A stretch of 64,000 nucleotides of DNA from Acidobacteriota bacterium (GTDB taxonomy: Bacteria > Acidobacteriota > Vicinamibacteria > Vicinamibacterales > 2-12-FULL-66-21). Every line of letters begins with the position of its first letter. The stretch's first letter is position 1. Made by a program: the position numbers and the translations under genes. Below the pieces are notes generated by a model that did no database searches, had not been told where the DNA came from, and was given only the letters and a program-made list of their open reading frames with translations. Below, piece by piece: positions 10,078 through 14,213 of this stretch. The stretch lies in NCBI GenBank assembly GCA_003222675.1, contig QHWT01000040.1, positions 156,510 to 220,509 of the forward strand, given 5' to 3'.

Positions 10078-11197
10078 CAGCTCGCGCGCCGATTGGAGCA
10101 CATCCGCCGCCGGCGCTGTGATGCCGCCTCCCTGCGCGAGCTCCGCGCGGCCGCCTCCCTTGCCGCCATGCTTTGCTATCAGCGCTTTCAAGATGGCGCC
10201 GGAATCGAGCGCAAGGCCAGCCGACCGCGCGATCACGATCGAGGACGGCGCCGGCTCAGATAGCAGCACGGCGACGTGGGCGGGACGCTCGACGATGCGT
10301 GACGCGATGGTCTTGATGCCAGCGACGTCCCAGCCGGGAAGTCCGGCGGTGACCAGTTTCAGTGATCCGAACGACGCCGCCGCATCGGCGAGCGCGTCCG
10401 CCTCGTGCGCCGCCAGGCGCTCTTGAGAGTCCTTCAACTGGCGACGCTGCTCTTTCGCGTCGCTTTGCAGCCGCTCGATCGCCGCGGGCAGCTCAGACGG
10501 CATAACTGACAGAACACGCACGCTCGCAGCGACGACATCGCGCAGCGAGCGGAACCCATGCAGCGCCCGGCCACCACAGAGGAACGTGATGCGCGAGCCT
10601 CCTTTGAAGCGCTCGGTGGAAGAGACGGCAATGACCCCGATGGCCCCGGTCCGTGACACGTGCGTGCCACCACACGCGGACCGATCGAACCCCTCGACGT
10701 CAATCAGGCGCAGCGTTCCCTCTCGTCTCGATTCCTTGCGCAGCCCGAGCGACGCCGCGTCCTCCGCGGACGCGAATCGAATCGCGACGGGACGATTCTC
10801 CCATACGATGCGGTTCGCCTCCTCCTCCGCGCCCGCAATCTCGCCCGCCGTCACGTCGCGCGCGAGATCGATCGTCGAGTACTCGGTGCCGAGATGGAAG
10901 CTTTCTGTAGGCACGCCGCAGAGGTGATCGGCGTGTCCAATCAATCGTGCCGTGCAGGGCCGTTGTCGACGGCGCGCGATCCACGACGTGCAGGATCCGG
11001 TCGTCGTCGATATCGATCACGTCGAGCACGCGGACGTCGTGGAACGAGCCGACGTCATGAGGCTGGCCGCCCGATGTCGGGTAGAAGGCCGTGCGATCCA
11101 GGACCAGCGCGGTCTGCCCGTCGTACGAGACGGTATCGAGGAGCGTGGCGTCGAATTCGCGGAGATACGGATCGTGATAGTAGAGCCGTTCAGTCAC
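10060..11197 (-). pseudogene. AlaX-like alanyl-tRNA editing protein with internal deletion and frameshift
   Basis: Two frames together make an AlaX-II-type trans-editing protein, which hydrolyses misacylated Ser/Gly-tRNA(Ala). The first frame (GTG 11197) encodes the N-terminal domain up to GTIDWTRR near 10945, including the RTAFYPTSGGQP motif. The second frame resumes at HLCGVPTESFHLG and holds the ACGGTH zinc motif, a coiled-coil linker and a DHHA1-like C-terminal domain to 10060. The expected zinc-binding HxxxH segment (normally HMxxHTxxH) between them is missing, about 18 residues, and the frame changes. The start overlaps queC by 4 bp (GTGA). As read, the protein should be inactive, but an assembly collapse would look the same. 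Confidence 0.75.
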
Positions 11198-11877
11198 TGC
11201 CGTTGCCGCACGAGAGCGGGATCGGCCACGCCCGCTTCGCGAAAGCCGCGCGCACGCAGCACGCAGCTGTCGCAGCGGCCGCATGGTGTCGCATCCGGCG
11301 CCGGATCGTAGCAGCTGTGTGTGAGCGCGTAATCGACGCCAAGCGCCAAGCCGCGGCGGATGATCTCCGCTTTCGACAGCTCGATCAGAGGCGACAGGAT
11401 GCGCAGCGGCCGCCCTTCGATACCGGCCTTGGTGGCAAGCGACGCGAGCCGTTCGAAGGCGCGCAGGTATTCCGGGCGGCAGTCAGGATAGCCCGAGTAA
11501 TCCAGCGCATTCACGCCGATGACGATCGCCTCCGCCTTGACCACTTCCGCCCAGCCGAGTGCGAGTGAAAGGAACACCGTATTGCGGGCCGGCACGTAGG
11601 TGGATGGGATATCGGCCGTGTCGAGCGGACGATCCTTCGGGATGACACCGTCACCAACGAGGGCCGATCCGCCAATCTTCGATAGCGGCACATCGAGCTC
11701 GAGATGCCGCACGGCGCCCAGCGCCGTCGCGACATCGCGCGCCGCTTCGATCTCGCGCGCGTGCACCTGCCCGTAGCGCACGGTCAGTGCATACAGCTCG
11801 TAGCCTCCTGCCTTCGCAATCGCGCCGGCAGTGTAGGAGTCGAGGCCGCCACTCAATAACAAAACCGCTCGGATCAT
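11194..11877 (-). CDS. queC: 7-cyano-7-deazaguanine synthase
   Basis: A 227-residue ATP-dependent enzyme converting CDG to preQ0 in queuosine synthesis. The PP-loop SGGLDS is at 9-14. The C-terminal zinc cluster is [17 protein letters not shown] (about 195-211), with the CxxC and flanking Cys residues expected. The length is normal for the family. queE lies upstream after a 104-bp gap on the same strand, and the alaX-like gene overlaps downstream. queA is 21 kb away in this window. Confidence 0.95.
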
Positions 11878-11981: not shown

Positions 11982-12623
11982 CTAGACGCCGCGCGTCTGA
12001 GGATCCCAGATGTACTTGTGAGCCTGGAGCTGCAGGCGAACGGCGAGCCTGTCGGCCAGGATCCATTCGGCGAGCTGCTTTGGATCGAGAACGCCATGCA
12101 CGGGCGAGAAGAGCACCGCCGCGCATCGGCCGACCAACTGCCGCTCCTCCACGACGCGCGTGGCGAATTCATAGTCTGCGCGATCCTTGATCACGAACTT
12201 CACTTCGTCGGTCACGCGCAGGCGATCCAGGTTCGGCCAGTGCATCTTGTCGGCCTCGCCGCTGCCCGGGCACTTCACGTCGATGACGCGGAAGACGCCT
12301 GGCGGGACCTGCTCGACGCTGAGGTGACCGCCGGTCTCGAGTAGAACGGTATGGCCTTCCGACAGGAGCTTCTCCATCAGCGGATAGACGTCCTTCTGAA
12401 GGAGCGGCTCGCCACCCGTAATCTCGACCACGTCACAACCGTAGTCGCGAACCTTCGCCACGACCTCATCAACCAGCATCTTGTTCCCTTCGTGGAACGC
12501 GTACGGCGTATCGCACCACGAACAGCGCAGGTCGCAGGCGGTGAGGCGCACGAACACGCAGGGCCGCCCGGCGTGGGTCGACTCCCCCTGGATCGAGTGA
12601 AAGATCTCGTTGACGGTCAGCAC
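11982..12623 (-). CDS. queE: 7-carboxy-7-deazaguanine synthase (radical SAM)
   Basis: A 213-residue radical-SAM enzyme that makes CDG, the substrate of QueC. The iron-sulfur motif is CDLRCSWC (Cx3Cx2C, about residues 30-37), followed by a substrate-binding EITGGEPLLQ segment. The N-terminal NEIFHSIQGEST is diagnostic of QueE. The start is GTG at 12623. With queC it forms the preQ0 branch of the pathway. Confidence 0.95.
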   Translation of the reverse strand: MLTVNEIFHSIQGESTHAGRPCVFVRLTACDLRCSWCDTPYAFHEGNKMLVDEVVAKVRDYGCDVVEITGGEPLLQKDVYPLMEKLLSEGHTVLLETGGHLSVEQVPPGVFRVIDVKCPGSGEADKMHWPNLDRLRVTDEVKFVIKDRADYEFATRVVEERQLVGRCAAVLFSPVHGVLDPKQLAEWILADRLAVRLQLQAHKYIWDPQTRGV

Positions 12624-12664: not shown

Positions 12665-12711
12665 GGTCCGGGGTGCGGGGTGCGGGGTGCGGGGTGCGGG
12701 GTGCGGATGCG
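12665..12711. repeat. Heptamer array GGGGTGC
   Basis: Six units of the same 7-mer as the array at 80-161 lie here. They end only a few bases before the ATG at 12715 and leave GGAG immediately before it as the only purine-rich leader. The array separates divergent queE and the arsC-like gene. Confidence 0.85.
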
Positions 12712-12714
12712 GAG

Positions 12715-13269
12715 ATGTCGAAGCCCACCTTCTACACGAAACCCACCTGAACGACCTGCAAGAGCGCCAGGAGTTTCCTGGATGAGCGCAAGATCGCCGT
12801 CGATCAGATTGACATCAACAAGACGCCGCCCACTCGCGCGTTTCTCGAGAAGCATATCGATCCCCACCGCTTCCTGGACTTCGTGAGCACGCGCAGCCCG
12901 GTGTTCAAGGAGCGCCCCCTGCCGAAATCGAAGAAGGAAGCGATCGACCTCATGATGGAGAACGCCAACTTGATCAAGCGGCCGATCCTGATTCGCGGGT
13001 CGAAGGTCACATTCGGGTTCGATCGTGAGGCCTACACGGCGAACGAGCGAGATCGAGTGAGCCCGCGAACGGAGCGGAGCGAGCTGCGAAGAGCGAGCGT
13101 CACGGAGAGAGCCAAGCGGGATGCAGGGGCGCCCGCCGACCAAACGAAGAGCGGCGCGGGGCACGGGGCCCCCGCCTCTCGACGGAGCTCGGGGCCTGAG
13201 CCAAGGTCGAAGGGCGCAAGCGAGCGTCCAGGGCGGTCCGGCGGGGCGAAGCCCGCCGGTAAAAAATGA
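12715..13269 (+). CDS. ArsC/Spx-like thioredoxin-fold protein with in-frame TGA at the first redox Cys (candidate selenoprotein)
   Basis: Reading from ATG 12715 gives MSKPTFYTKPT, then TGA (12748-12750), then TTCKSARSFLDER and about 105 further in-frame residues of an ArsC-like protein (RSPVFKE, then NLIKRPILIRG, the conserved Arg-Pro substrate region). The TGA replaces exactly the first Cys of the family CxxC motif, giving UxxC. The frame is otherwise intact on both sides. A short hairpin follows at a suitable distance for a bacterial SECIS. After about residue 110 a basic, repeat-like tail of 75 residues runs to 13269, overlapping the next gene by 4 bp. The alternative is a nonsense mutation or sequencing error. 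No selA/selB/selC is in the window to decide. Confidence 0.7.
12764..12789 (+). promoter_or_regulatory. Candidate bacterial SECIS hairpin
   Basis: CCAGGA (12767-12772) pairs with TCCTGG (12776-12781) around a GTT loop. A lower GCG/CGC helix (12764-12766 with 12787-12789) extends it across a 5-nt bulge. The apical loop begins with G and lies 22 nt after the TGA. Both facts fit the published general constraints on bacterial SECIS elements: a short distance from UGA and a G among the first loop bases. Many GC-rich stretches can fold, so this is supporting evidence only. Confidence 0.5.
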
Positions 13270-14213
13270 GCGTACGCGTCGGCACATCCGGCTGGAGCTA
13301 CCCCACGGGGCGAGGCGCCTGGAACGGAATCTTTTATCCCGTCCCCGCCGGCGCGTCGCGGAAAAAGAAGGGCGCGTTCGACGAGCTCACGTTCTACGCC
13401 GAGCACTTCGATACGGTGGAGGTGAACTCGAGCTTCTACGGCGTGCCTACGCCGCAGACGACCGAGCGATGGGCGGAGCGCACGCCGGCCGGTTTCGAGT
13501 TCTCGCTGAAGCTGTACCGGAAGTTCACGCACCCCGAGATGTTCGCGAAAGCGACCGGTGCGGATCCGTCTGCGCTCGGAGATAAAGACGTCGATGAATT
13601 CCGCCGCGCGATCGATCCGCTCGCCAGGGCAGGCAAGCTGGGCGCGCTGCTCGCGCAGTTTCCCGCGAGCTTTAAAAACGAGGGCAACAACCGCGGCTAC
13701 CTGGAGTGGCTCCTCGGCGCGTTCAAGCAATACCCGCTGGCCGTGGAATTGCGGCACCGGAGCTTCAGCGACGACCCGCAGGGCACGCTCGCGCTGCTCG
13801 GCGAGTTCGGCGCGGCACTCGCGCAGATCGACGAACCGAAGTTCAGGCTGTCGATCAGGCAGACGCTGCTACCCAACGTGCGGACGTTCTATTACATGCG
13901 GCTGCACGGCCGGAACGCCGAGCAGTGGTGGCGTCACGACAAGTCCGAGGACCGCTACAACTATCTCTACACTGCCGACGAACTGCAGCCGATCGTCGAG
14001 GCTGCCGACGCCGCGTCACGTCACGTAAAGAAGGCCTATCTCTACACGAACAATCACTTCTCGGCGAAGTCCGTGGCCAACGCCGCGACGATCAAGCAGA
14101 AGCTCGGGCAGCCGCTCGACGGCGAGTACCCGGAGGAATTCGTCGACCGGTATCCGGAGTTGAAAGGGCTCGTCAGGATCTTGCCGCCTCGTCCTTCAGA
14201 TACGCTCGTTTGA
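13266..14213 (+). CDS. DUF72 family TIM-barrel protein
   Basis: A 315-residue protein with the family start VRVGTSGWSYP and conserved blocks VEVNSSFYGVP, FSLKLYRKFTH, LAVELRHRSF and YLYTNNHFSAKSV. DUF72 (YecE-like) proteins are TIM barrels without established function. The ATG at 13266 overlaps the stop of the arsC-like gene by 4 bp. The last 41 bp overlap the end of the convergent cyclophilin gene. Confidence 0.9.
   Translation: MSVRVGTSGWSYPTGRGAWNGIFYPVPAGASRKKKGAFDELTFYAEHFDTVEVNSSFYGVPTPQTTERWAERTPAGFEFSLKLYRKFTHPEMFAKATGADPSALGDKDVDEFRRAIDPLARAGKLGALLAQFPASFKNEGNNRGYLEWLLGAFKQYPLAVELRHRSFSDDPQGTLALLGEFGAALAQIDEPKFRLSIRQTLLPNVRTFYYMRLHGRNAEQWWRHDKSEDRYNYLYTADELQPIVEAADAASRHVKKAYLYTNNHFSAKSVANAATIKQKLGQPLDGEYPEEFVDRYPELKGLVRILPPRPSDTLV

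Follow-up and report, generated by a model that had tools for sequence, protein, structure and literature searches.

A probable selenocysteine-containing branch of the ArsC/YffB thioredoxin-like fold in an acidobacterial order

The window (the whole 64,000-nucleotide stretch of acidobacterial DNA analysed) contains a reading frame in which a TGA codon stands where the ArsC family has the first cysteine of a CxxC motif. This raises the questions of whether the codon is read as selenocysteine (Sec) and of what the product may do. Translation of the frame with TGA as U gave MSKPTFYTKPT-U-TTCKSARSFL, with UTTC as active site and a single in-frame TGA ahead of the stop codon. An earlier note, made from the letters alone, had described this frame, and its ATG at 12715, the YTKPT stretch, TGA 12748-12750 and the following TTCKSARSFL were all borne out by sequence and translation. 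It had also predicted that an ORF finder would miss the gene: with TGA taken as a stop, the sole ORF listed started at a GTG (12883-13269). Its statement that the frame is intact for over 100 codons after the TGA held in part. The frame is open for 172 codons up to 13269, of which about 97 belong to the conserved domain, but about 76 (13042-13269) are repeat-derived and lie outside it. Taking together the evidence given below, TGA 12748-12750 almost certainly encodes selenocysteine, and the locus would be a genuine selenoprotein gene. The features of the locus are collected in Table 1.

Table 1. Features of the putative selenoprotein locus and its neighbours (window coordinates).
Feature	Position	Strand	Basis
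Putative selenoprotein CDS	12715-13269	+	ATG start, single Sec-TGA, stop TGA 13267-13269; translation with TGA as U; Pfam ArsC PF03960; orthologues
TGA probably read as selenocysteine, U12 of UTTC	12748-12750	+	TGA in 38/38 rows of the same-order Sec-form set; TGC in L066
Cys15 of UxxC (codon TGC), presumed resolving residue	12757-12759	+	Invariant in 24-sequence alignment
SECIS-like hairpin CCAGG-AGTTT-CCTGG (or CCAGGA-GTT-TCCTGG)	12767-12781	+	Pairing, compensatory pair, synonymous codon fixation
Conserved ArsC/YffB-like thioredoxin-fold domain	12715-13041	+	24-sequence alignment; AlphaFold2; Foldseek
In-frame tail specific to this lineage, derived from dispersed repeats	13042-13262	+	49 matches in own genome; absent from orthologues
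DUF72 gene, conserved neighbour	13266-14213	+	Pfam PF01904; synteny; overlaps selenoprotein stop as ATGA
Radical SAM gene (QueE-like), conserved neighbour in divergent orientation	11982-12623	-	Radical_SAM match; synteny; name inferred from place beside queC
queC, conserved neighbour	11194-11877	-	QueC E 3e-70; synteny

The gene was matched in 29 of the 60 relatives searched and was missing in about half of them. In the close matches spanning the codon, TGA was always present and was followed by TTC and then, except in genome G044, by about 100 open codons. The 37 non-redundant Sec-form sequences from the same order all kept TGA. Since all Sec-form relatives found in the order have TGA at this codon, its presence is not due to chance. 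A scan of named genomes added 34 further loci, nearly all from acidobacterial MAGs, and those spanning the codon again had TGA except L066. These relatives place the host among the acidobacteria. This sole clear orthologue without TGA carries TGC at the codon, occupies the same syntenic place between queE and DUF72, and comes from a genome that has selA. It lacks the hairpin, showing CCCGGGCGTTTCTCG where the others have CCAGAAGTTTTCTGG. In the tree (from which rows L129 and L132, representing NF041106, were disregarded as excerpted from the wrong place), L066 lay on a long branch inside the Sec clade with support 88/93; the direction of change there was therefore likely from Sec to Cys, at a locus where the hairpin has decayed. 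The alternation of Cys and TGA that the earlier note had proposed to look for was observed: homologues kept TGA, and Cys occurred in other lineages and in the syntenic L066. The remote matches L036 and L037 were canonical Cys proteins. Codons downstream of the TGA, which the earlier note had suggested to check, were under purifying selection (median NG86 dN/dS 0.29 for unsaturated pairs), and no general decay of the gene, the outcome it had named as refuting, was found in relatives. The copy in G044 (L032/L089) has a TAG 12 codons after the TGA and a damaged hairpin; it is probably a decaying copy or a sequence error, and therefore loss of the gene does occur. In another relative, G049, the gene was found in two pieces at contig ends.

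The host assembly (7.16 Mb, 99.9% complete) was searched for the machinery of selenocysteine incorporation proposed in that note as a check, and all of it was found: a tRNA-Sec above cut-off (61.4 bits) with TCA in its gene at the anticodon (UCA), and selB (335 bits), selA (539 bits) and selD (344 bits). The selD gene (L043, G000:C36:78330-79259) has its own TGA within the motif CAGUASK (AGUASK) and is thus very likely to encode a further selenoprotein. SelA was present in 41 of the 43 other TGA-form genomes searched, and the remaining two (G002 and G049), each in hundreds of contigs, had SelB above cut-off, so that SelA or SelB co-occurred with every same-order TGA form searched. SelA was not found in 17 of 27 Cys-form genomes, which come mostly from one family and so represent few independent events.

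The hairpin claimed earlier, with a G-first loop 22 nt downstream of the TGA, proved to be real and conserved, with G in the small loop. Its stem is formed by CCAGG (12767-12771) and CCTGG (12777-12781) and can be extended by the pair A12772-T12776 to leave a GTT loop; the stem begins 16 nt and the loop about 22 nt past the TGA. Among the 37 non-redundant sequences, the 6-bp stem was paired in 95.9% of the alignment cells. Its fifth pair was A-U in 25 sequences and G-C in 12 and was never broken, although covariation was limited to this pair, the others hardly varying, and is by itself of limited weight. Codon choice under the hairpin was nearly fixed, although the encoded residues leave room for synonymous variation: the proportion of same-codon pairs was 100% for Ala GCC, 98% for Ser AGT and 95% for Leu CTG, against an expected 28-45%, and Arg was encoded by AGA or AGG in every row. 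Some codons further downstream were also biased, and therefore codon bias alone is not proof of a SECIS element. More distant acidobacterial TGA clades had stems that differed in sequence and register, for example GCAAAA-GGTC-TTTTGC and GCAAGA-GGTC-TCTTGC. An Rfam search with the hairpin gave no match, and its folding energy was by itself unremarkable (MFE z -1.1). The region had similar mean folding energies in TGA forms (-8.8 kcal/mol) and in Cys forms (-6.7 kcal/mol), and these were not counted as evidence.

The product matched the Pfam ArsC family PF03960 (E 2.5e-12; 47.3 against a gathering cut-off of 24). AlphaFold2 confidently predicted an ArsC/YffB/Spx fold (mean pLDDT 95.6). Foldseek matched Spx, YffB and ArsC-related proteins, among which 3gkx (0.86) and 1rw1 (0.84) had the top TM-scores. 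These YffB or ArsC-related structures, together with 2kok, share with the product a short chain and the place of the redox residue; all three carry Cys where this protein would have Sec. Sec coding, the SECIS element, the fold and purifying selection are supported by comparison of sequences. On balance, the most likely function is that of a Sec-type YffB/glutaredoxin-like thiol-disulfide reductase, for which we infer redox direction, substrate and partner. YffB proteins bind glutathione and do not have the Arg triad of ArsC; a role as thiol reductases has been proposed for them (PMC3169414). It is because of these YffB traits (PMC3169414), and because the place of Spx G52 is not conserved, that a YffB/glutaredoxin-like reductase is favoured and ranked above an arsenate reductase and an Spx-type regulator, both less likely. 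During translation, tRNA-Sec and SelB would decode TGA 12748-12750 as selenocysteine, with the hairpin 16 nt downstream acting as SECIS. The product, a small member of the ArsC/YffB/Spx superfamily with a thioredoxin fold, would carry its UxxC active site at the N-terminal end of helix 1. In such a reductase, the selenolate would attack a disulfide or another oxidised sulfur substrate, Cys15 would resolve the mixed selenylsulfide, and a cellular thiol system would then re-reduce the protein.

A first alternative is an Spx-type regulator with a Sec redox switch that binds the alpha subunit of RNA polymerase. Spx provided the best sequence matches among solved structures (3l78, E 3.5e-17), and Spx structures (3l78, 3gfk) resemble the product in fold, place of the CxxC and an STRS motif. 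CxxC is the redox switch of Spx (PMC2801614), the Arg equivalent to Spx R60 was invariant, and the domain alone just reached the cut-off of the Spx/MgsR model TIGR01617 (75.2 versus 75.05; 73.3 with the tail). However, the place of Spx G52 was occupied by R, N, D, H or T in 22 of 24 sequences and by G in two, and a G52R substitution abolishes alpha-CTD dependent activation by Spx (PMC2801614). Moreover, unlike Spx, these proteins stop soon after the domain and would carry Sec, and no model for Spx proper scored the window protein above cut-off. We regard this regulator as unlikely. Still less probable is a Sec counterpart of the Spx switch outside Gram-positives, a selenylsulfide UxxC sensor of oxidants whose target would be transcription or a partner protein.

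A selenium-dependent arsenate reductase appears as improbable as the Spx-type regulator. It would agree with the Pfam match to the ArsC family, and hand alignment suggested that equivalents of ArsC Arg60 and Arg94 are present and conserved. The place of Arg107, however, seems to read FGFD with no Arg, and in ArsC this triad is reportedly essential (PMC3169414). The arsenate reductase model TIGR00014 was far from its cut-off (36.7 versus 106 bits), and no ars genes were found nearby, the neighbours being queC, queE-like, DUF72, PPIase and nth genes. The earlier description of the protein as ArsC-like therefore stands for the fold and not for arsenate reduction.

The in-frame TGA, the repeat-derived tail and the second stop in one relative could point to a sequencing error or to a pseudogene created by a nonsense mutation, but both were rejected as highly improbable, given the same TGA in independent genomes of many genera, the dN/dS, the conserved hairpin and the Sec machinery. 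Genome-wide reassignment of TGA to another amino acid, for which no support was found, is more remote again, since normal genes of the window (those for QueC, DUF72 and PPIase) have TGA as their stop codon, and it was likewise rejected.

ArsC-like selenoproteins have been known as a kind since 2005-2006 (PMC1794560, PMC1088965; see also PMC13188914). Those of PMC1794560 and the arsenate reductase selenoprotein from the Sargasso Sea (PMC1088965) have Sec in place of the catalytic Cys and a SECIS, as would be the case here; the Sargasso form has UxxS, whereas UxxC is found here. The family NF041106 (ArsC_rel_Se_1, arsenate reductase-like; PMC13188914) is the nearest curated Sec family tested and shares the ArsC relationship, UxxC and TGA in Acidobacteriota. 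It formed a distant, separate clade on a long branch, the window protein scored 26.0 and 28.5 bits against its curated cut-off of 85, and no same-order genomes were among the NF041106 matches listed. No description of the present branch was found in open papers. It may coincide with the subfamily of the 2006 'ArsC-like' and 'distant ArsC homolog' entries (PMC1794560). Judged from sequence, we consider it a well-supported new Sec branch, common in one acidobacterial order, of an already known kind within the ArsC/YffB fold. Ordinary gene finders cut the gene in half, and because the branch scores below the cut-offs of the NCBI selenoprotein models tested, automatic annotation probably shortens its product to the false GTG start. 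Further TGA clades of the ArsC type, again with hairpins of their own, occur in other acidobacterial families (L109-L118). Sec/Cys differences occur several times across the ArsC-type clades of the phylum and, together with the hairpin decay in L066, offer a natural test of the benefit of Sec. Contigs labelled Acidimicrobiia (L071) and Woeseiaceae (L075) also carry the gene; both labels look wrong, because the L071 genome corresponds exactly to G057 by its selA coordinates and L075 has acidobacterial synteny.

Orthologues terminate directly after the conserved domain, and the low-complexity tail of about 76 residues is an addition to the selenoprotein in this genome. Synteny was strong for queC, queE-like, DUF72, PPIase, nth and a dehydrogenase gene; it was determined by tblastn with named genes, clustering of longest ORFs being unusable because wrong-frame ORFs dominate in this GC-rich DNA. 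These neighbours say little about the function of the selenoprotein. The ATGA overlap of its stop with the DUF72 start, present here and in L045, suggests translational coupling of the two genes. Upstream, six GGTGCGG heptamers are arranged in tandem (12665-12706), ending 8 bases before the start codon.
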